DNA of 33,589 nucleotides from Phreatobacter sp. (GTDB taxonomy: Bacteria; Pseudomonadota; Alphaproteobacteria; Rhizobiales; Phreatobacteraceae). Position numbers and translations under genes: made by a program. Under the pieces are notes generated by a model, which saw only the letters and a program-made list of their open reading frames with translations, made no database searches and was not told where the DNA came from. The DNA lies in NCBI GenBank assembly GCA_019749835.1, contig JAIEPJ010000167.1, forward strand, positions 1 through 33,589. Direction: 5' to 3'. Below are positions 22,281 to 32,757 of this stretch, piece by piece (the first letter of the stretch is position 1; every line of letters starts with the position of its first letter).

Positions 22281-22778
22281 ATGGCCGCTCTCGCCCTCAT
22301 CTCCGAGCCCGGCCGCCGGCCCTGGCTGAAGGCTGTCGTCATCGGCGCCGCATTGCTGCTCGCACCACTGGTCTGGTGGACGGTGCTGGCGCTCGCCGGG
22401 ACGCGCGTGCCGGTGCCGGTGCCCTCCGGCCTGTCGACGGCGCTGATCGTCGTGGCGGCGCTTGTCATCGCGCCGCTGCTGGAGACCGCGGTGCTCGCGC
22501 TGCTGCACTGGCTGACCATCATGCGGATCGGCTTGCCCCGCGCCGTCTTCACGGGGGTGGCGGTGCTGGCGGCGGTGCTCGCGCACCTGCCGCTGACCCT
22601 GGTGCGCACACCGATCACGGTGGCGATCTTCCTCGTCTTCGCATGGCAATATGCCGGCTGGCATGCGGCGCGCGGCTGGCGCGTCGCCTTTCTCGGCACG
22701 GCGCTCGCCCATGCCACCTACAATGCCGGGTCTCTCGCGCTCGCACCGCTCTGGGCCTTCCTGCTGAGGCCGGCCTGA
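22281..22778 (+). CDS. Membrane protein with degenerate CPBP (CAAX protease-like) signature
   Basis: A 165-residue inner-membrane protein with about four or five hydrophobic segments. Seen: ALVIAPLLETAVLALLHW (E68), VLAHLPLT (H102) and ALAHATYNAGSL (H144, N148). These sit in the order of the three CPBP/Abi protease motifs (EExxxR, FxxxH, HxxxN), but the first motif keeps only one Glu and lacks the Arg, so it is either a divergent member or an inactive one. It begins 4 bp after coxD and its stop overlaps the coxE start (TGATG), so it is translated together with coxE. Its role in cox maturation is unknown. Confidence 0.8.
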   Translation: MAALALISEPGRRPWLKAVVIGAALLLAPLVWWTVLALAGTRVPVPVPSGLSTALIVVAALVIAPLLETAVLALLHWLTIMRIGLPRAVFTGVAVLAAVLAHLPLTLVRTPITVAIFLVFAWQYAGWHAARGWRVAFLGTALAHATYNAGSLALAPLWAFLLRPA

Positions 22779-23968
22779 TGGCGAACGCGCTGGCCGAGAA
22801 CATCGCCCATTTCGCCCGTGCGCTGCGCACGGCCGGGATGCCCGTCGGCCCCGGAACGGTGCTCGATGCGGTGGCGGCGGTGGAGGCGGCGGGCATCGGC
22901 TCGCGCGATGACTTCTACTGGACGCTGCACGCGGTCTTCGTGACGAAGCACGAGCAGTCCCTGCTGTTCCGCACCGCCTTCGAGATCTTCTGGAAGAAGC
23001 GTCATCTGATGGAGAAGCTGCTCTCCATCCTCATGCCGGTGGCGCCGGCCGCGCCGGGCAAGCCCGATCCGGTGTCGCTGCGTCTCCAGGAGGCCTTCTT
23101 CAAGCAGGCCGAGAGCGTGCCGGTGGAGAAGCCGGAGATCGAGGTCGATGCGAGCCTGACGGTTTCCGACATCGAGGTGCTGCAGAAGAAGGATTTCGCG
23201 CAGATGACCGCCGCCGAGATCGCCGAGGCCAACCGCAAGGTGGCGGCCCTGGTGCTTCCGGACGATGCCGTCGTGACGCGCCGCCTGGCGCCCGATCCCC
23301 GCGGACGGCGGATCGACCTCAGGCGCACCCTGCGCCAGTCGATCGGGGAGGGGGGCGGCATCATCGATCTCGCCCGCCGCGGCCCGAAGACGAAGCATCC
23401 GCCGCTGGTGGTGCTCTGTGACATTTCCGGGTCGATGAACCAGTACACCCGGGTCATCCTGCATTTCGTCCACGCGCTGATGGAGAACCGCCGCAACGTC
23501 CACGCCTTCACCTTCGGCACGCGGCTGACCAACATCACCCGCATGCTCAAGGCGAAGGACCCGGACGAGGCGCTCGCGGCCTGCTCGGCGGCGGTCGAGG
23601 ACTGGTCGGGCGGTACGCGAATCGCGCCCTCGCTGGCGGCCTTCAACAAGGTCTGGTCGCGACGGGTGCTGTCGGGCGGGGCGGTCGTCCTTCTGGTGAC
23701 CGACGGGCTCGAGCGCGACGGCACGGCCGATCTCGCCCGCGCCGCCGACCGGCTGCATCGCTCCTGCCGCCGGCTCGTCTGGCTCAACCCGCTGCTGCGC
23801 TTCGACGGGTTCGAGGCCCGTGCCCAGGGCATCCGCGCGCTGCTGCCCCATGTCGACGAGTTCCGCACCATCCACAATGTGGCGGCGGTGGCTGAACTCG
23901 TGGCTGCGCTGGACGCGCGCCGGCCGGACCGGACGCATGATCCGCGGCGGTGGATGAAGGCGCTGTAG
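22778..23968 (+). CDS. coxE: VWA domain protein CoxE
   Basis: A 396-residue protein with a C-terminal von Willebrand factor A domain, partner of the MoxR-type CoxD. Seen: an N-terminal helical part (ENIAHFARALRTAGMPVGPG, then FYWTLHAVFVTKHEQ), a central RRLAPDPRGRRIDLRRTLRQ block found in CoxE proteins, and the VWA metal site VVLCDISGSM (D215, S217, S219) with a later VLLVTDGLERDG. No signal peptide, so cytoplasmic. Start ATG 22778 lies in a TGATG overlap with the preceding membrane-protein gene. Known: MoxR-VWA pairs act as chaperone systems for metal-centre assembly. Confidence 0.94.
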   Translation: MANALAENIAHFARALRTAGMPVGPGTVLDAVAAVEAAGIGSRDDFYWTLHAVFVTKHEQSLLFRTAFEIFWKKRHLMEKLLSILMPVAPAAPGKPDPVSLRLQEAFFKQAESVPVEKPEIEVDASLTVSDIEVLQKKDFAQMTAAEIAEANRKVAALVLPDDAVVTRRLAPDPRGRRIDLRRTLRQSIGEGGGIIDLARRGPKTKHPPLVVLCDISGSMNQYTRVILHFVHALMENRRNVHAFTFGTRLTNITRMLKAKDPDEALAACSAAVEDWSGGTRIAPSLAAFNKVWSRRVLSGGAVVLLVTDGLERDGTADLARAADRLHRSCRRLVWLNPLLRFDGFEARAQGIRALLPHVDEFRTIHNVAAVAELVAALDARRPDRTHDPRRWMKAL

Positions 23969-24300: not shown

Positions 24301-24623
<323 letters not shown>

Positions 24624-24624
<1 letters not shown>

Positions 24625-25301
24625 TGCGCCTCGCACTCCTCTCCGCGCTCAACGCGGCCCGTTCCGACAGGCGCGCCGCCGTCCTCGTCACCGATCTCGA
24701 CGGTGGTGCGGCCCGCCTCGTCACGGCGGAGACCCTCGCCGGTGATCCGCTGGAGGAGGCGATCCGCACGGCCCTGCGCACGGGGCGCAGCGGTATCGTG
24801 GAGGGGACGCGTGCCTTCCTGACCGTCCAGGTGCCGCCGGCGCGGATGGTCGTCATCGGCGCCGTCCATATCAGCCAGGCGCTGGTGCCGATGGCGCGGA
24901 TGATCGGATACGATCCCGTCATCGTCGATCCGCGCACGGCTTTCGCCACGCCCGAGCGCTTCCCCGGCGTGACGGTTCTGGCGCAATGGCCGGACGAGGC
25001 GCTGCCCGGCCTCAAGGTCGACCGCTACACCGCCTTCATCGCGCTGACCCACGATCCGAAGATCGACGATCCCGCGCTGATGCACGCCTTCGAGAAGGAC
25101 TGCTTCTATATCGGCGCGCTCGGCTCGCGGAAGACCCATGCCCGCCGCGTCGAGCGCCTGGGCGCCAACGGCGCGTCGCCGGAGGCGCTGGCCCGCATCA
25201 AGGCGCCGGTCGGCCTCGCCATCGGCGCCATAACCCCGGCAGAGATCGCCGTGTCGATCCTCGCCGAGGTGACGCAGGCCTGGCGGCAGGGCATCGCGTG
25301 A
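24624..25301 (+). CDS. XdhC/CoxF family protein, Rossmann-domain gene
   Basis: A 225-residue protein with the C-terminal Rossmann domain of XdhC. Seen: a short N-terminal part (residues 1-70), then MVVIGAVHISQALVPMAR (75-92; GxxxxxxAL pattern), VIVDPR, AFIALTHDPKIDDPAL, GALGSRKTHARR (164-175) and IGAITPAEIAVSI. The histidine and the GSRKTHARR block are hallmarks. It is translationally coupled to the N-terminal-domain gene by TGATG, so the two halves very likely form one complex. Together they should serve the coxSLM enzyme. Confidence 0.92.
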
Positions 25302-25334
25302 GATCGGCCCGGGCGCACGGCTAGGAGACGGCAG

Positions 25335-26942
25335 ATGCGGTTCGGTCCCGTGCCCTTGGACGAAGCGCTTGGCGGCATCGTCGCGCATGCCGTGCGCCGG
25401 GACGGCCTGCTCCTGAAGAAGGGCACCCGGATCGGGGCGGCGGAAATTGCGGCACTGGCCGCTGCCGGCCTCGACAGCGTGACCGTGGCGCTGGCCGAGC
25501 CGGGCGATGTCGGCGAGGACGAGGCGGCCGCGCGCATTGCGGCGGCGGTGGCCGGTACCGGTCTGCGCATCGACCCGGCCTTTACCGGCCGCGCCAATCT
25601 CTTCGCTGTGGAAGCCGGTGTCTTGGTTGTCGACCGCAGCGGCATCGATCGGATCAATCGCATCGACGAGGCGATCACGTTCGCGACCCTGTCGGCCTTC
25701 GCCGCCGTCGAGGCCGGTGAGATGGTGGCGACGGTCAAGATCATCCCCTATGCGGTGGCGGGCCCCTGCGTCGCCGACGCGATCGCCGCTGGGCCGCTTG
25801 TGCGCGTGGCGCCTTTCGTCCGGCGCCGCATCGCCGTGGTCTCGACCCTTCTGCCGGGGCTCGCCGACAAGGTCGTCGACAAAACCCTCAGGGTCACGGC
25901 CGACCGTCTGGCGCCAGCCGGGGCCCAAATCGTCGCCGACAGACGCATTCCCCACGATGCCGCGGCACTGGCGGCGGTGATCGCCGAACTCCGGCTGCAG
26001 GCCGATCTCATCCTCGTTTTCGGGGCCTCCGCCATCGCCGACCGTCGCGACGTCATCCCGGCCGCGCTGGAGGCGGCGGGCGGCCATGTCGAACATCTCG
26101 GCATGCCGGTCGATCCCGGCAACCTCCTGATGATCGGCGCGCTGGACGGCGTCCCGGTCATCGGCGCACCCGGATGCGCCCGCTCGCCGAAGGAGAACGG
26201 CTTCGACTGGGTGCTGATGCGGCTTCTGGCTGGCCTCGCGGTGACCAAGCAGGACGTGACCGGCATGGGGGTGGGAGGCCTATTGATGGAGATCGTGTCG
26301 CGACCGCAGCCGCGGGCGGGAGACGTCGAGGATTCCCCGGCGCCGCGCATCGCCGCCCTTGTGCTAGCGGCCGGACGCTCGACGCGCATGGGCGGACCGA
26401 ACAAGCTCCTTGCCGAGATCGGCGGCAAGCCGCTGGTGCGTCATGCGGTGGAGGCGGCGTTCGGGGCCGGGCCGGCCGACATTCTCGTCGTCACCGGGCA
26501 TCAGGAGGCGGCCGTGCGCGCGGCATTGTCGGGCCTTCCCGTGCGCTTCGTCCACAATCCCGAATTCGCCGACGGGCTGTCGACCTCGCTCAAGGCGGGT
26601 ATCGCGGCGCTCGGCGAGGCGATCGACGGGGCCGTGGTGCTGCTCGGCGACATGCCGCGCATCTCGCCTGCGCTGGTTGCAAGGCTCGCCGCGGCCTTTG
26701 CCCCCGAGGAGGGCCGCCACATCGTCGTGCCGGTGGCCGACGGGCGCCGCGGCAATCCGGTCCTGTGGGGGCGCCGTTTCTTCCCCGAGCTCATGCGCGT
26801 CACCGGCGACCAGGGCGGTCGGGCGGTTCTGGCCAGTGCGCCCGAGGCCATCGCCGAGGTCTCGGCGGAGCAGGACGACGTCCATCTCGACCTCGATACG
26901 CCCGAGGCGCTGGCCGCCGCCGGTGGTCGACCGGCGTCTTAA
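25335..26942 (+). CDS. Molybdopterin-binding / MobA-MocA-like nucleotidyltransferase fusion
   Basis: A 535-residue fusion. Residues about 1-330 look like a molybdopterin-binding (MoCF) unit: FGPVPLDEALGGIVAHAV, LLLKKGTRIG, IIPYAVAG, LILVFGASAIADRRDVIPAA and PVDPGNLLMIGALDGVPVIG. Residues about 338-535 are a MobA-like NTP-transferase: LVLAAGRSTRMGGPNKLLAE (343-362), VVTGH, VVLLGDMPRISPAL and RGNPVLWGRRFF. Known: MocA-type enzymes join CMP to molybdopterin to give the cytosine dinucleotide cofactor used by CoxL-type enzymes; MobA adds GMP. CMP is the likelier choice here because of the neighbours. AGGAGA precedes the ATG. It closes the cox accessory group. Confidence 0.92.
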   Translation: MRFGPVPLDEALGGIVAHAVRRDGLLLKKGTRIGAAEIAALAAAGLDSVTVALAEPGDVGEDEAAARIAAAVAGTGLRIDPAFTGRANLFAVEAGVLVVDRSGIDRINRIDEAITFATLSAFAAVEAGEMVATVKIIPYAVAGPCVADAIAAGPLVRVAPFVRRRIAVVSTLLPGLADKVVDKTLRVTADRLAPAGAQIVADRRIPHDAAALAAVIAELRLQADLILVFGASAIADRRDVIPAALEAAGGHVEHLGMPVDPGNLLMIGALDGVPVIGAPGCARSPKENGFDWVLMRLLAGLAVTKQDVTGMGVGGLLMEIVSRPQPRAGDVEDSPAPRIAALVLAAGRSTRMGGPNKLLAEIGGKPLVRHAVEAAFGAGPADILVVTGHQEAAVRAALSGLPVRFVHNPEFADGLSTSLKAGIAALGEAIDGAVVLLGDMPRISPALVARLAAAFAPEEGRHIVVPVADGRRGNPVLWGRRFFPELMRVTGDQGGRAVLASAPEAIAEVSAEQDDVHLDLDTPEALAAAGGRPAS

Positions 26943-26972
26943 CCAAGCTGAATGCCGCGGGGCGACTTTGAC

Positions 26973-27004
26973 AAAAAAATCCCCGGGTCGTTGCCGGCCC
27001 GGGG
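26973..27004 (-). terminator. Left-facing intrinsic terminator with no known upstream gene
   Basis: On the minus strand CCCCGGG (27004-26998) pairs with CCCGGGG (26987-26981), extended by three inner pairs to a four-base loop; seven T follow at 26979-26973 after one A. This is a strong terminator for leftward transcription. No left-facing protein gene lies before it, so it may end a small RNA or may act in both directions at the end of the preceding rightward gene (weakly, as no T-run exists on that side). Confidence 0.7.
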
Positions 27005-27073
27005 CGTCAGATGGTCATCTCCGTGGACGCGGAGTGGTTGAATCTGTCTATCTGCCTATCCGCAGTGCAGCAC
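26973..27073 (-). ncRNA. Possible small RNA ending at the left-facing terminator
   Basis: Leftward from a TTGATT hexamer (27079-27074) the minus strand carries CTCCG-cgtcca-CGGAG, a small hairpin, then the terminator at 27004-26973. The hairpin-plus-terminator form fits a short trans-acting RNA. The -10 of the promoter is weak and no known family is recognised, so this is only a candidate. Confidence 0.22.
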
Positions 27074-27181
27074 AATCAAGACCGCATCTTTACCCTACCG
27101 GTTGACCTTAACCCGGTGGACTGGATTTCCCTCCAATTGTCGGCATTGGCACGCGGCCTCGCCGGGCGCTGAAACCGGCCG

Positions 27182-27225
27182 TGGTCATCGTGGGGTCATG
27201 GTGGCTTCACCCGGACGTCATCCCC
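27182..27225 (+). promoter_or_regulatory. Tandem Pho-box-like repeats upstream of btaA
   Basis: Four 11-bp units follow each other: TGGTCATCGTG, GGGTCATGGTG, GCTTCACCCGG, ACGTCATCCCC. GTCAT recurs at 27184, 27195 and 27217, exactly in 11-bp phase, and the fourth (27206) is a weaker TTCAC. PhoB binds 11-bp direct repeats with a (C/T)TGTCAT-like 7-mer followed by 4 bp. The block ends 46 bp before the btaA ATG, leaving room for a -10 and a short leader. Known: btaA is under PhoB control in Sinorhizobium. Confidence 0.6.
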
Positions 27226-27271
27226 CCCTCCTACCTCCGTCCCCAGACTCCTCGAATCGGGATGAGACGGC

Positions 27272-28525
27272 ATGGCTCTGGTGGCAGGCGAGGCGCGCAA
27301 GGCGACCCATCGCAATATCGGACGGGCCGTCGCCCGCCACAGCCCGCTGTCCCCGGCGGGGCTGCAGGAGCAGCTCTTCACCCTGATGTTCTCTGGTCTC
27401 GTCTATCCGCAGATCTGGGAGGATCCGGCGATCGACATGGAGGCGCTGGCGCTCGGCCCGACCGACCATGTGGTGGCGATCGCTTCGGGCGGCTGCAACA
27501 TCCTCAGCTATCTCGTTGACGGACCTGCGCGCATCACCGCCCTCGACCTCAACGAGAACCACGTGGCGCTGAACCGGCTCAAGCTGGCGGCTGCCCGTCA
27601 CCTGCCGGATCATGCGAGCTTCTTCCGCTTCTTCGGCGAGGCCGACACTCAAGACAACGTCGCCGCCTACGAGCGCCATCTGCGCGATCGCCTCGATCCC
27701 GTGACGCGCGCCTACTGGGACCGCCGCGACTGGGCCGGCCGCCGCCGCATCGGGCAGTTCGCCGGCAACATCTATCGCAAGGGCCTGCTCGGCTGGATGA
27801 TCGGCACCGGCCATGCGGTTGCGCGCCTGCACGGCCGCGACCCCCGCCGCATGCTGGAGGCCCGGTCGCTGGCCGAGCAGCGCGCCATCTTCGACAGCGA
27901 ATTGAAGCCGCTGTTCTCCTCGGGGCTGGTGCGCTGGCTGGTGAAGAATCCGGCCTCGCTCTACGGGCTCGGCATTCCGCCGGCGCAGTACAAGGCGCTG
28001 CTGACCTCGGCCAAGGCCGGCGGCGGCATGGAGGAGGTGCTGGTGGCCCGCCTCGAACGCCTCGCCTGCGGCTTTCCGCTGGAGAGCAACTATTTCGCCT
28101 GGCAGGCCTTCGGGCGCCGCTACCAGCCGGGCGCGACGGGGGCCGTGCCGCCCTATCTCGCCGCCGCCCATTTCGACGCAGTGAGGGCCCATGCCGATCG
28201 CGTCGAGGTCTGCCACGAGAATTTCATCGACCACCTCGAACGGCAGCCCGATGCCTCGCGCGATGCCTATGTGCTGCTCGACGCGCAGGACTGGATGACG
28301 GACGCGGTGCTGAACCGGCTGTGGCGCGCGATCCTGCGCACGGCGCGGCCTGGTGCTCGCGTCATCTTCCGCACGGCGGCCGAGGAGAGCCTGCTGCCGG
28401 GCCGCGTGGCGCCGGAGATCCTCGCCCGTTTCACCTATGACGCGGCGCGCTGCCGGGCCTGGACCGACCGCGACCGGTCGTCGATCTATGGCGGTTTCCA
28501 CCTCTACAGGCTGGCGGCGTCGTGA
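27272..28525 (+). CDS. btaA: BtaA: SAM:diacylglycerol 3-amino-3-carboxypropyltransferase
   Basis: A 417-residue DUF3419-type enzyme. It moves the 3-amino-3-carboxypropyl group of S-adenosylmethionine to diacylglycerol, giving diacylglycerylhomoserine, the first step to the betaine lipid DGTS. Seen: LMFSGLVYPQIWEDP (38-52), the SAM-fold motif IASGGCNILSYLV (70-82), ALDLNENHVALNRLK (90-104) and a C-terminal VLLDAQDWM that resembles the acidic block of the family. GGGATGAGA precedes the ATG. btaB overlaps its stop by GTGA. The Pho-box-like repeats upstream fit a phosphate-starvation gene. Confidence 0.93.
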   Translation: MALVAGEARKATHRNIGRAVARHSPLSPAGLQEQLFTLMFSGLVYPQIWEDPAIDMEALALGPTDHVVAIASGGCNILSYLVDGPARITALDLNENHVALNRLKLAAARHLPDHASFFRFFGEADTQDNVAAYERHLRDRLDPVTRAYWDRRDWAGRRRIGQFAGNIYRKGLLGWMIGTGHAVARLHGRDPRRMLEARSLAEQRAIFDSELKPLFSSGLVRWLVKNPASLYGLGIPPAQYKALLTSAKAGGGMEEVLVARLERLACGFPLESNYFAWQAFGRRYQPGATGAVPPYLAAAHFDAVRAHADRVEVCHENFIDHLERQPDASRDAYVLLDAQDWMTDAVLNRLWRAILRTARPGARVIFRTAAEESLLPGRVAPEILARFTYDAARCRAWTDRDRSSIYGGFHLYRLAAS

Positions 28526-29193
28526 CCGCGCCGACGGATGTCTTTCCCGCCTCCGAGCGGATGGATGCGATCTATCGCTGGCAGGTCGGCATCTACGACG
28601 CGACGCGGAAGTTCTACCTGATCGGCCGCGATCCGTTGATCGCGGACCTGGCGCCGCCGGTCGGCGGCACGGTGCTGGAAGTGGGCTGCGGCACCGGGCG
28701 CAACCTCATCGTCGCCGCCCGGCGCTATCCGCAGGCCCGGTTCTGCGGGTTTGACGTCAGCCCGGTCATGCTGGCCGAGGCACGCCGCGCCGTGGCGCGC
28801 GCCGGGCTCGCCGGGCGCATCCACCTCGCGCAGGCCGATGCAGCGCGGTTCGATCCCCTGACCACTTTCGCATGCGAGGGCTTCGACCGGGTCTTCTGCT
28901 CCTACACGCTTTCGATGATCCCGCCATGGCAGGAGGCGCTCGACCGGGCGCTGGCCGCGGTGCTGCCGGGGGGAAGCCTCCAAGTCGTCGATTTCGGCGG
29001 CCAGGAGCACCTGCCATCGGTCTTTCGCGCGGGGTTGCGGGCCTGGCTGGCACAATTCCACGTCACGCCGCGGGACGGTTTCGCGCCGGTGCTCGCGGAC
29101 CTCGCGGCGGCGCGCGGCCTGTCGGCGCAGGTCGACCGTCCCTATCGCGGCTACGCCGTCCGCGCGATCGCCGCCCGGCCGCCCCTTGCTTGA
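28522..29193 (+). CDS. btaB: BtaB: diacylglycerylhomoserine N-methyltransferase
   Basis: A 223-residue class I methyltransferase that adds three methyl groups from SAM to diacylglycerylhomoserine, completing DGTS at the membrane. Seen: an N-terminal RMDAIYRWQVGIYDATRKFY block typical of BtaB, SAM motif I VLEVGCGTGRNL (51-62), FCGFDVSPVML (acidic end of strand two), and the later CSYTLSMIPPW and LPGGSLQVVDFGG. It starts with GTG in a GTGA overlap with btaA, so the two are coupled as in other bacteria. Confidence 0.93.
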   Translation: MTAPTDVFPASERMDAIYRWQVGIYDATRKFYLIGRDPLIADLAPPVGGTVLEVGCGTGRNLIVAARRYPQARFCGFDVSPVMLAEARRAVARAGLAGRIHLAQADAARFDPLTTFACEGFDRVFCSYTLSMIPPWQEALDRALAAVLPGGSLQVVDFGGQEHLPSVFRAGLRAWLAQFHVTPRDGFAPVLADLAAARGLSAQVDRPYRGYAVRAIAARPPLA

Positions 29194-29228
29194 CCCCGTC
29201 GGCGGGCGGGGGCTATGACCCCCGCCAT

Positions 29229-30332
29229 ATGACCCAGGCCCTCCAGACCGCCGGCGCCCCCGAACTGACGGTGGTCGTGCCCAGCTACAACGAACGGGAC
29301 AACGTGCCGGAACTGGCGCGCCGGCTCGATCATGTGCTGGCCGGCATCGCCTGGGAGATGATCGTCGTCGACGACGACAGCCCGGACGGCACCGCCGCCG
29401 TGGTCAAGGAGATCTCCCGGCGCGACCCCCGCGTGCGCTGCATCCGGCGCGTCGGGCGGCGGGGGCTTGCGGGCGCCTGTATCGAGGGCATGCTCGCCTC
29501 ATCTGCGCCGGTCGTCGCTGTCATGGACGGCGACCTGCAGCACGACGAGACCATCCTGCCGGCCATGCTCGAGCAGATCCGCGCCGGACGCGACCTCGTC
29601 GTCGCCAGCCGCAACATTGCCGGCGGCTCCAAGACCGAGGGTCTGACGCCGGTCCGCCAGGGGATTTCCGACCTCGGTCGCCGCCTGTCGGCGATGATCC
29701 TCAAGGCGCCGCTGACCGATCCGATGTCTGGCTTCTTCATGATCCGCCGCGACATCGTCGAGGAGGTGGCGCCGCGCCTGTCCACCACCGGTTTCAAGAT
29801 TCTCGCCGACATCGCGGCCTCGGTGCCCAGGGCGCCGAGCTTCGCCGAAGTCCCCTTCGTCTTCCGCGAGCGCGTCCATGGCGAGAGCAAGCTCGACGCC
29901 AAGGTGGCGCTGGACTATGTCGGTTTTGTCCTGAACAAGCTGTCCGGCGGGTTCATTCCGCTGCGCTTCATCTTCTTCGCGCTGGTCGGGACAAGCGGCC
30001 TCATCGTCCATCTTGTGGCGCTCTATGCTGGCCTGACGCTCGGCCTGCGCTTCGAGTGGGCGCAGACTCTGGCGACAGTCGTCGCCATGACGTCGAATTT
30101 CGTCATCAACAACGAGATCACCTATCGCGACGCCCGGCTGAAGGGCGCCCGCTTCCTGACCGGCCTGCTGCTGTTCTATCTCGTGTGCAGCATCGGTGCC
30201 TTCGGCAATGTCGGCGTCGCCAGCTGGCTCTATGCCGGCGATGTCGACTGGTGGCTCTCGGGCCTCGCCGGGGCCGTCATGGGGGCCGTGTTCAACTATG
30301 CCGCCTCGGCCACCCTCGTCTGGCGCCGCTGA
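29229..30332 (+). CDS. GT2 glycosyltransferase fused to GtrA-like membrane domain
   Basis: A 367-residue protein. Residues about 12-235 form a family 2 glycosyltransferase of the dolichol-phosphate-mannose synthase type: LTVVVPSYNERDNVPEL, IVVDDDSPDGT (45-55), VMDGDLQHD (98-106, the DxD metal site), and DPMSGFFMIRRD. Residues about 238-367 form a GtrA-like domain with four membrane helices (FIFFALVGTSGLIVHLVALY, TSNFVINNEITYRD). Known: such proteins load a sugar on undecaprenyl phosphate, and GtrA may flip it. It begins 35 bp after btaB and ends one base before the GT39-type gene, which would use the lipid-linked sugar. Confidence 0.92.
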   Translation: MTQALQTAGAPELTVVVPSYNERDNVPELARRLDHVLAGIAWEMIVVDDDSPDGTAAVVKEISRRDPRVRCIRRVGRRGLAGACIEGMLASSAPVVAVMDGDLQHDETILPAMLEQIRAGRDLVVASRNIAGGSKTEGLTPVRQGISDLGRRLSAMILKAPLTDPMSGFFMIRRDIVEEVAPRLSTTGFKILADIAASVPRAPSFAEVPFVFRERVHGESKLDAKVALDYVGFVLNKLSGGFIPLRFIFFALVGTSGLIVHLVALYAGLTLGLRFEWAQTLATVVAMTSNFVINNEITYRDARLKGARFLTGLLLFYLVCSIGAFGNVGVASWLYAGDVDWWLSGLAGAVMGAVFNYAASATLVWRR

Positions 30333-30333
30333 C

Positions 30334-31863
30334 ATGGCACCGGCCTTGCGCCCGGTCTGGGCGGGGAGCGCCGGTGCCGTCCTCGTTCTGGTCTGCGGCC
30401 TGACGGCGGTGCGGCTCTGGGCCGCCGGGTCCCTCGGCCTCGCTGCCGACGAAGCCTATTACCACCTGTGGTCGCAGAATCTCGCCCTCGGCTATTTCGA
30501 CCACCCACCGATGGTGGCGCTGCTGATCCGTGCCTCCACGACGGTTTTCGGCGACACGGAATTCGGCATCCGCTGGCTGTCTGTGCTGCTGGCGGCGGCG
30601 GCGAGCCTCGGGGTCTGGCGCCTCGTCTGGCGCCTGACCGACGACCAGACGGCGGCGATCGCCGGGGCCGGGATGGTGCAGGCGACGCTGTTCCTCGGCG
30701 CCGGCGCCATGCTGGTGACGCCGGATACGCCGCTCGTGCTGTTCTGGACGCTGGCGCTGCTCGCCCTGGTCGAGGTCTGGCGCACCGGCCGGGGCGTCTG
30801 GTGGCTGGCGGCAGGCCTCGCTGTCGGCCTCGCCTTCATCTCCAAATACACGGCCGTCTTCCTCGGCCTCGCCATCCTGCTCTGGATCGTGCTGGTGCCG
30901 GAGCTCCGGCGCTGGCTGCGCTCGCCCTGGCCTTATGCGGGCGGCATCCTCTGCCTCGCCGTCATGGCGCCGGTGCTGTGGTGGAACCTCGTCCATGGCG
31001 GGGCGTCCCTCACCAAACAGTTCGGCCGCGCGGTTCCGAAGACCTTCGACCCGCGCTTCGTGCCCGAATTCATTGCCGGACAGGCGGCGCTTCTGACGCC
31101 GCTGATCGGGATCCTCGTGCTCTGGGGGCTGTGGGTGGTCGCTCGCCGCGCCCTGCAGGCGCGGGAGCCGGGCGCCGTACTACTGACCGTGTCTGTGCTG
31201 CCGCTGCTCGCCTATCTCGTCTGGTACGGCCTGTTCGACCGCGTGCAGGGCAACTGGACGGCCTGTCTCCTGCCAGCCACCATCGCTGCCGCCGTGATCG
31301 GCGCCAAGGCCCTGCCGGCCGCTGCCCCCCGCGCCGCGGCAGTGATGCGGGTATGCCTGCGCTGGTCGGTGGTGAGCGGGGTGCTGCTCGGGCTCTTCGT
31401 CATCGGCCATGCGGGTTTCAGGCTGGCGCCGCTGGCCATTGATCCGACGGGCCAGCTGCACGGCTGGCGCGCCACTGCGGAGGCCGTCGAGGCGGCGGCC
31501 ATGAGGGCCGGGGCGGGCACGATCGGCACGGTAAGCTACACGACGACGGCGCATCTGCGCTTCTACGGCACCGGCCGGCTGCCGGTGGTCCAGCTCGGCG
31601 AAAGGCTGCGCTATGCGATGGAACCGGCGCCCGATGCCGCCGCCATCGCCGCGCGGCCGGTTCTGGTCGCGGTCGAGAGCCGCCGCGTGGCGGAGGTCAG
31701 CGTACGCCTCGGGCAGGTCTATCGGTTTGTCGAACCGGCAGGGGCGGTCGACAGGCTATGGCGGCCGCGGTTCGGGCTGACGGATCGCATGGACCAGCTG
31801 GTGCTCTTCGTCGTCCGTGATCCGCTTCAGCCTGGCCTTCCCGATCTCGCCGCGCCTCAGTAG
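30334..31863 (+). CDS. GT39/ArnT-like membrane glycosyltransferase
   Basis: A 509-residue protein with about ten or more membrane segments. Seen: an N-terminal helix, then the first-loop motif LAADEAYYHLWSQNLALGYF (37-56) and DHPPM (56-60), with D39-E40 at the place of the catalytic Asp/Glu of PMT/ArnT enzymes; many hydrophobic helices; and a soluble C-terminal part (ATAEAVEAAAMRAGAGTIG, YTTTAHLRFYGTGRLPVV). Known: these use polyprenyl-phosphate sugars as donors, for lipid A, proteins or other lipids. The GT2-GtrA gene one base upstream is the expected donor maker. Acceptor unknown; position behind btaAB suggests an envelope lipid. It overlaps the convergent gene by 7 bp. Confidence 0.92.
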   Translation: MAPALRPVWAGSAGAVLVLVCGLTAVRLWAAGSLGLAADEAYYHLWSQNLALGYFDHPPMVALLIRASTTVFGDTEFGIRWLSVLLAAAASLGVWRLVWRLTDDQTAAIAGAGMVQATLFLGAGAMLVTPDTPLVLFWTLALLALVEVWRTGRGVWWLAAGLAVGLAFISKYTAVFLGLAILLWIVLVPELRRWLRSPWPYAGGILCLAVMAPVLWWNLVHGGASLTKQFGRAVPKTFDPRFVPEFIAGQAALLTPLIGILVLWGLWVVARRALQAREPGAVLLTVSVLPLLAYLVWYGLFDRVQGNWTACLLPATIAAAVIGAKALPAAAPRAAAVMRVCLRWSVVSGVLLGLFVIGHAGFRLAPLAIDPTGQLHGWRATAEAVEAAAMRAGAGTIGTVSYTTTAHLRFYGTGRLPVVQLGERLRYAMEPAPDAAAIAARPVLVAVESRRVAEVSVRLGQVYRFVEPAGAVDRLWRPRFGLTDRMDQLVLFVVRDPLQPGLPDLAAPQ

Positions 31864-32567
31864 CGCCGCCAGAGGGACAGGCCGGCATAGGCGCCGGAAC
31901 GGCCGCCGCGATCCTGCGCAAAGCCTGCCGACAGGCGAAGTCCGACGGGGCCGACGGTGATGCCCGTCGCATGCAGGCCAAGCCGCGTGCGCAGGGTGCC
32001 GTGGTGGGCGCTGAACGTCGCCTCCGGCCCGACATAGATGCCGCCGCCGATGTCGTAGCCGGGCGCGACACGCAGGCTCGCCGCGGCGAAGGGGGTCGCA
32101 TAGGTGGCGTAGAGCTGGACGGCGACACGCTCATAGGGAGTGAGCCAGGCGTCGAGCGTCACGACCGGACCGATGCGCGTCCCGACATGGGGGTCGGGGA
32201 GGGCGGGCGACAGGCGCCGCGTCTCCAGGGCGAGGCCGGCGAAGAGGGTCGCCGAGCCCCAATGGCCCTGTTCGCGCCAGCCGGCCAAGAGCCGTGCGGT
32301 GGTCGTGGTCTCCAGGACCCGATCCGGCAGAACGGGATCGATGCGGAACCGCGACATCCCCGTGCCGGCCGTGATGCGCAGGGCGAGGCCGCGGCCCTCG
32401 CCGTGCCGAACGGTCAATGCATCGAAGCCAGAGGAGAGGTGGAAGCCGTCGAAGGCGCCATCAAGGCCGAAGAAACTCGTGAAACGACGTTCGGCGGGCG
32501 CGTCGGCGAGAGCCACGCCCGGCAACCATGCGACGGCAATGGCTCCCCATGCTCTCCATGCGCGCAT
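31857..32567 (-). CDS. bcsS: BcsS-like outer-membrane beta-barrel protein
   Basis: A 236-residue exported protein. Seen: a signal peptide (MRAWRAWGAIAVAWLPGVALA) with cleavage near ALA-D, then alternating beta strands: RFTSFFGLDGAFDGFHLSSG, ARLLAGWREQGHWGSATLFAG, LALETRRLSPALPDPHVG, VAVQLYATYATPFAAASLRV, IGGGIYVGPEATF, and a final strand ending in aromatic Tyr (SLWRRY), as in outer-membrane proteins. This pattern fits the BcsS family, which is linked to cellulose synthesis in Rhizobiales, but no bcs gene is in the window and the symbol rests on remembered resemblance. Start ATG 32567; convergent with the GT39-type gene. Confidence 0.65.
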   Translation of the reverse strand: MRAWRAWGAIAVAWLPGVALADAPAERRFTSFFGLDGAFDGFHLSSGFDALTVRHGEGRGLALRITAGTGMSRFRIDPVLPDRVLETTTTARLLAGWREQGHWGSATLFAGLALETRRLSPALPDPHVGTRIGPVVTLDAWLTPYERVAVQLYATYATPFAAASLRVAPGYDIGGGIYVGPEATFSAHHGTLRTRLGLHATGITVGPVGLRLSAGFAQDRGGRSGAYAGLSLWRRY

Positions 32568-32651
32568 GGGTCATTCGCTCATGGAACCTCGCCTCTGGCC
32601 ATATGGGACATCACCGGATGAGACGGCGGGTACGGCGGCGTCACTCGGCCG

Positions 32652-32667
32652 TTAATCATCCGCTAAC
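32652..32667. promoter_or_regulatory. Near-consensus CtrA site between bcsS-like gene and usg
   Basis: TTAA-tcatccg-CTAAC has the exact spacing of the CtrA site TTAA-N7-TTAAC with one mismatch. It lies in the 190-bp divergent gap, 85 bp from the bcsS-like start and 91 bp from usg. CtrA controls cell-cycle and envelope genes in alphaproteobacteria. Seen by eye only. Confidence 0.4.
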
Positions 32668-32757
32668 CATGTTGGTCGCTCAATCTCGACGGCACGGCCG
32701 TGTCGCCGGTCGGCCAGCAAGACCCAGTGCATCGTCGCAGCTTCGCCGGAGGCCGTC

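Follow-up and report, generated by a model that had tools for sequence, protein, structure and literature searches.

The genes btaA and btaB of Sinorhizobium meliloti, together with their Agrobacterium homologues, are the closest described counterparts of the locus discussed here. The sinorhizobial genes are reported to be under PhoB regulation (PMC3972451) and to be strongly induced at low phosphate (PMC8829014). Marine plcP-agt and plcP-btaAB have been presented as Pho-box loci of phosphorus-free-lipid genes, some of them with a glycosyltransferase (PMC4796936), and three-component extracytoplasmic glycosylation has been described as a system of a polyprenyl-phosphate glycosyltransferase, a GtrA protein and a GT-C enzyme (PMC11127046). 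We analysed a stretch of 33,589 nucleotides from Phreatobacter sp. (the whole of this stretch is called the window below; contig JAIEPJ010000167.1 of GCA_019749835.1, a 4.43-Mb draft assembly of 326 contigs), in which btaA and btaB are followed by a gene for a GT2-GtrA fusion protein (GT2) and a gene for a GT39-like GT-C enzyme (GT39). The last two are referred to as the glycosyltransferase (GT) pair.

The Phreatobacter locus resembles that of S. meliloti and the Agrobacterium homologues in btaA and btaB themselves, in the DUF3419 and methyltransferase domains of their products and in phosphate control, which for Phreatobacter is predicted. It differs from the S. meliloti locus in its four 11-bp units and in the GT pair that comes next and was not found behind btaAB outside the genus. 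The presence of btaAB under a Pho box is an arrangement already known. In contrast to the marine loci, where Agt is said to make the glycolipids monoglycosyldiacylglycerol (MGDG) and glucuronic acid diacylglycerol (GADG) (PMC4796936), Phreatobacter has a polyprenyl-phosphate/GT-C pair instead. The GtrA/GtrB/Gtr-type systems consist of the same three parts as this pair, but the first two are fused in Phreatobacter. Among the open-licence PMC papers listed for this question, no title or abstract describes btaAB combined with GT2-GtrA and GT-C genes; the papers listed on Phreatobacter lipids do not mention the genus and are therefore little informative in this respect.

Our data suggest, with a probability of roughly 75%, that the locus is made of two adjacent, separately controlled modules: btaAB behind a Pho box, and the GT pair with a promoter-like signal of its own. 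The features involved are the following (positions in the window):

27184..27221, plus strand: Pho box ending 50 bp before btaA, made up of four GTCAT-type units in 11-bp phase
27272..28525, plus strand: btaA, S-adenosylmethionine (SAM):diacylglycerol 3-amino-3-carboxypropyltransferase; DUF3419 (PF11899), E 2.8e-111
28522..29193, plus strand: btaB, N-methyltransferase of diacylglyceryltrimethylhomoserine (DGTS) synthesis; methyltransferase domains, Methyltransf_25 E 4.7e-19; 4-bp overlap with btaA
29190..29219, plus strand: TTGACC-N18-TATGAC, the promoter-like element before the GT pair; overlaps the btaB stop codon and ends 9 bp before the GT2 ATG
29229..30332, plus strand: GT2-GtrA fusion, polyprenyl-phosphate glycosyltransferase of the dolichol-phosphate-mannose-synthase (DPMS) type with a GtrA membrane domain; Glycos_transf_2 E 1.7e-30, GtrA E 1.1e-16
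30334..31863, plus strand: GT-C glycosyltransferase, PMT_2/GT39-like, ArnT fold; PMT_2 E 1.4e-41
31857..32567, minus strand: bcsS-like cellulose biosynthesis protein, convergent and outside the unit; PF17036 E 1.5e-30

The initial annotation, made from the sequence of the window, had proposed four rightward genes with gaps of -4, 35 and 1 bp, and this is confirmed by the open reading frames and the Pfam domains. The unit that it drew around them (27182-32567) is right for the four genes, but its end takes in bcsS, which lies on the minus strand and shares only the last 7 bp of GT39.

The btaAB genes and their Pho box

BtaA matches PF11899 with 372.8 bits against a cut-off of 28.2, over residues 35-413 of 417, and a SAM-dependent methyltransferase gene stands directly behind its gene, as domain and adjacency demand of btaAB. 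A solved relative of BtaA was sought by sequence and none was found. In our survey of the order Rhizobiales, 101 of 297 genomes have a BtaA match (E <= 0.001). Sixteen loci, drawn from the 93 genomes outside Phreatobacter with such a match, were checked for btaB and for the Pho motif, and in all 16 the btaB match starts at most 100 bp from the end of the btaA match. As a side observation, the btaB genes of the window and of one related locus (L012) share only 80% identity, although the seven other genes compared between the two reach at least 92%; either a faster evolution of btaB or its exchange may account for this.

The four units in front of btaA begin at 27184 (GTCAT), 27195 (GTCAT), 27206 (TTCAC) and 27217 (GTCAT), in exact 11-bp phase. 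They were scored with a six-column unit matrix, trained on 60 units from 15 ugpB upstream regions of 12 Phreatobacter genomes. The ugpB genes were identified by their sequence, and we take ugpB to be a member of the Pho regulon. This choice was not fully blind: we had met ugpB via a one-mismatch match to the pattern of the btaA box, and its boxes were taken as the best GTCAY phase. All 15 UgpB homologues (L147-L161; some of the 12 genomes have two copies) carry a four-unit 11-bp-phased motif upstream, with 17-19 of 20 matches. Upstream regions of PstS-like genes, found by a family search, were kept out of the matrix because they are less regular: the phased motif reaches 16 of 20 matches in 11 of these 20 regions and fewer in the other nine.

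The scans covered 300 bp upstream, and those before btaA were each compared with 300 dinucleotide shuffles. The box before btaA in the window scores 24.7 bits, which none of the 300 shuffles equals, and the repeats in 11-bp phase described by the initial annotation are thereby borne out as four units at 27184-27221. A Pho box precedes btaA in all eight Phreatobacter genomes that have this gene (bta+), with 24.5-31.4 bits and again 0/300 shuffles in each case. The four-unit pattern without mismatch occurs in 7 of the 12 genomes, always in front of btaA, and no hit was obtained when the pattern was reversed; with one mismatch there are six hits in the 12 genomes, four before ugpB and two before another transporter gene. 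In two loci (L122 of genome G008 and L124 of genome G001) a GGGTCAT-rich near match, a possible Pho box, lies before a gene that by eye looks like one for an ABC-transporter substrate-binding protein. In the 16 loci of the order outside the genus, the three-unit score of the btaA upstream region is unmatched by 100 simple shuffles in eight cases and matched in the other eight. We regard the phosphate link of btaAB, predicted from these sites, as well supported.

The glycosyltransferase pair with and without btaAB

The initial annotation had extended phosphate-starvation-like control over all four genes. This is supported for btaAB, but it could not be upheld for the glycosyltransferases. With the ugpB-trained matrix there is no Pho box before GT2 in any of the four Phreatobacter genomes without btaA (bta-), the scores being -26 to -13 bits, and the rest of the window has no site of at least 10 bits apart from register shifts of the btaA box. 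The GT pair thus has no Pho box of its own in these four genomes, and in the window the only site is the one before btaA.

Gene content points in the same direction. The order of genes is xdhC-mocA-btaA-btaB-GT2-GT39-usg in 8 of the 12 Phreatobacter genomes and xdhC-mocA-GT2-GT39-usg in the other four. The two GT genes are adjacent in all 12 loci, window included. The eight bta+ genomes all keep the arrangement of btaAB followed by the GT pair, and no BtaA match was found anywhere in the four others, the completeness of which is 98-100%.

Outside the genus the two modules appear unlinked. A GT2-GtrA protein (E <= 1e-40) is present in 82 of the 297 genomes of the order. Of 285 genomes outside Phreatobacter, 24 have both btaA and GT2-GtrA, where chance would give 22.8 (one-sided Fisher test, p 0.42); the co-occurrence of the two genes there is at chance. 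As assembled, btaA stands next to GT2-GtrA in none of these 24 genomes: in seven both genes are on one contig, separated by about 38 kb in the closest case, and in the other 17 they are on different draft contigs, where a contig break could in principle hide an adjacency. We also scanned named genomes with a GT2-GtrA profile and considered the best 80 loci, 7 from Phreatobacter (four of them with btaAB) and 73 from other bacteria. None of these 73 loci has btaA within the sequence covered, which extends at most 10 kb per side and in several loci less than 3 kb on one side. A GT-C gene lies directly downstream of GT2-GtrA in 39 of the 73 and upstream on the opposite strand in two more, and a GT39 match was found in 14 of 20 GT2-GtrA neighbourhoods of the order outside the genus. 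The expectation that relatives would show conserved GT2-GtrA/GT39 neighbours behind btaAB is contradicted by both surveys (0/24 and 0/73). To judge from these sequences, the GT pair is a widespread module, and its abutment with btaAB was found only in Phreatobacter.

In a tree of the neighbouring proteins the btaAB state changes twice within the genus, some of the forks concerned having bootstrap values of 80-88. The branching of the BtaA tree is compatible with that of the neighbour tree, the copy of strain NMCR1094 being the deepest. If btaAB is taken to be absent from this site in the outgroup, three steps are needed either way, by one gain plus two losses or by three separate gains, and the former is favoured only by the shared position, the shared Pho box and the BtaA tree. 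Our reading is that btaAB was probably inherited within the genus and then lost twice.

Control of the pair and competing explanations

Directly before GT2 we find CTTGACC-N-CTAT(G/C)AC, in which 18 bp separate TTGACC from TATGAC and the first hexamer overlaps the btaB stop codon. The search pattern TTGAC-N17-19-TATNAC, which was derived from the blocks before GT2 themselves, has a single match in the window and a single match in each of 10 related loci out of 11, always just before GT2; both strands of about 233 kb were searched. Of the 12 Phreatobacter loci, 11 thus have the promoter-like element, whether btaAB is present or not. When the blocks are aligned on the second hexamer, with the bta- locus L018 omitted, bta+ genomes and the three remaining bta- genomes are 70-73% identical within 20 bp on either side of the second-hexamer start and 25-28% identical at 60-120 bp upstream. 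The GT2 ATG follows 9 bp past the second hexamer, a distance that would suit a leaderless mRNA. An own promoter-like element in 11 of 12 loci and the retention of the pair without btaA in 4 of 12 genomes argue against placing the two glycosyltransferases in one phosphate response with btaAB, as had been proposed.

According to the two-module reading, PhoB, phosphorylated when phosphate is low, would occupy the four 11-bp units at 27184-27221 and switch on btaA-btaB. BtaA and BtaB would then make DGTS, a membrane lipid free of phosphorus, from diacylglycerol and SAM, as can be expected from the characterised relatives. Polyprenyl phosphate would receive a sugar through the GT2 domain, GtrA would help to carry the lipid-linked sugar to the periplasmic face, and the enzyme with the ArnT fold would pass it to an acceptor. 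Transcription of the GT pair would start at a promoter of its own directly in front of GT2 and might give a leaderless mRNA. The pair stays where btaAB is missing.

Several observations weigh against such a reading. In L018 the block is shifted about 135 bp upstream and its first hexamer is altered, the pattern is found before GT2 in none of the 73 non-Phreatobacter loci, and a generic scan for E. coli-type promoters called none in 26900-32700. The spacer of the element contains in several genomes a partial inverted repeat, GACCCC...GGGGTC, which could be an operator or a hairpin. No clear Shine-Dalgarno sequence precedes GT2, but because three other starts likewise lack one by eye, its absence adds little to the idea of a leaderless GT2 mRNA. 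Finally, transcription could run from btaB into GT2, because the gap is only 35 bp and a generic scan called no terminator-like site in it; the same scan also missed a likely minus-strand terminator near 26973.

An alternative is that transcripts from the Pho promoter continue beyond btaAB into the GT pair and that a lipid or lipid A is glycosylated in the phosphate-saving response of bta+ Phreatobacter. We consider this unlikely, though it is the most probable of the alternatives. The common strand and the narrow gaps of the four genes, without a called terminator between them, agree with read-through, and so do the retention of the arrangement in every bta+ genome and the report that glycosyltransferases share Pho-box loci with other phosphorus-free-lipid genes, as in plcP-agt (PMC4796936). 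However, a promoter-like element precedes the GT pair itself in bta+ as well as bta- genomes, the pair is kept without a Pho box where btaAB is absent, and it is unlinked to btaA outside the genus. A co-regulated four-gene lipid unit was set aside as the leading view for the independence of the GT pair from btaAB in gene content and upstream signals.

Slightly more doubtful still is a dual control of the GT pair in bta+ species, from its own promoter and from Pho read-through, by which starvation would raise a glycosylation of a periplasmic lipid or of lipid A that in other bacteria is not under phosphate control. If this were true, an old glycosylation module would have become part of the Pho response through gene order alone. 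Phreatobacter would then allow a clean test, set up by nature, of whether a regulon can grow by adjacency, because btaAB is present in some related species and absent from others and a bta+ strain, Phreatobacter sp. NMCR1094, is reported as isolated and completely sequenced (PMC6742797).

It is highly improbable that the conserved 40-bp block before GT2 is an RNA hairpin or an operator that separates or tunes two genes in one transcript: the inverted repeat within it and the lack of a called E. coli-type promoter would fit, but in L017 and L020 the repeat is weakened while both hexamers and their spacing are intact, and the block is retained in 3 of the 4 bta- genomes, where btaB is absent. 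Returning to the two separately controlled modules, the locus illustrates that a tight row of genes on one strand can mislead, and that a comparison within the genus may split a phosphate-driven lipid operon from the glycosylation pair that follows it.

Components of the pair and neighbouring features

A profile of the GT2-GtrA protein matches, over positions 6-360 of 362 (E 3e-71), structure 5mlz, which we take to be the DPMS of Pyrococcus furiosus. The fusion of a GT2 domain to GtrA and the near full-length similarity to a solved member place the protein among the DPMS-type polyprenyl-phosphate glycosyltransferases. Both proteins carry the GT2 domain and the GtrA-like membrane domain in one chain, but the Phreatobacter protein is bacterial and its carrier is presumably undecaprenyl phosphate.

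The sequence profile of the GT-C protein gave no match to solved structures at E 0.01, and for this reason its fold was predicted. The model, calculated with 27 sequences, has a mean predicted local distance difference test score (pLDDT) of 88. Its closest solved folds are those of ArnT, the lipid A aminoarabinose transferase (5ezm and 5f15; for 5f15 Z 31.0, root-mean-square deviation 4.2, 429 aligned residues), and ArnT outranks protein mannosyltransferases and oligosaccharyltransferases as a fold match. The GT-C fold is common to both enzymes, but they share only 15% identity, and the Phreatobacter protein was rejected as an ArnT equivalog by NCBIfam NF009784 (25 bits against a cut-off of 567). 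A polyprenyl-phosphate glycosyltransferase, a GtrA part and a GT-C enzyme are thus encoded together, in two genes, as in the three-component systems.

The neighbours of the GT pair are variable in the 20 loci of the order and the 73 named non-Phreatobacter loci (for example hisS/hisZ/hisG and groEL, by eye), and among the larger neighbour clusters of these loci no lipid A genes were seen beside the pair. A lipid A link based on the neighbourhood was set aside accordingly. Lipid A is nevertheless a candidate acceptor by analogy, because some relatives are described as carrying galacturonic acid or mannose on it (PMC7663294); Rgt homologues in other species are described in the same article.

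Upstream of the locus, the region 24310-26942 contains XdhC, split in two overlapping genes with XdhC_CoxI and XdhC_C domains, and downstream of them a gene for a MocA-type nucleotidyltransferase with a molybdopterin-binding domain. A CoxE-type VWA gene is found at 22775-23968. Judged by their domains, the XdhC genes, mocA and the CoxE-type gene look like a cluster for molybdo-hydroxylase maturation.

Between mocA and btaA there is a candidate small RNA gene on the minus strand (26973-27097). It has a conserved upstream block (TTAAGGTCAACCGGTAGGGTAAA), a hairpin that hardly varies (CUCCG-CGUCCA-CGGAG) and, ahead of a U run, a terminator stem in which three pairs show compensatory changes. Its fold is somewhat better than that of shuffled sequences (z -2.25; 4 of 200 as good). 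Rfam gave no match at the gathering score in the window, and two sub-threshold matches overlap 26973 (E 0.05-0.06). The candidate is present in all 12 Phreatobacter loci, with btaAB or without, and a model built from these 12 sequences matched 5 of 150 genomes of the order, all five from Phreatobacter.

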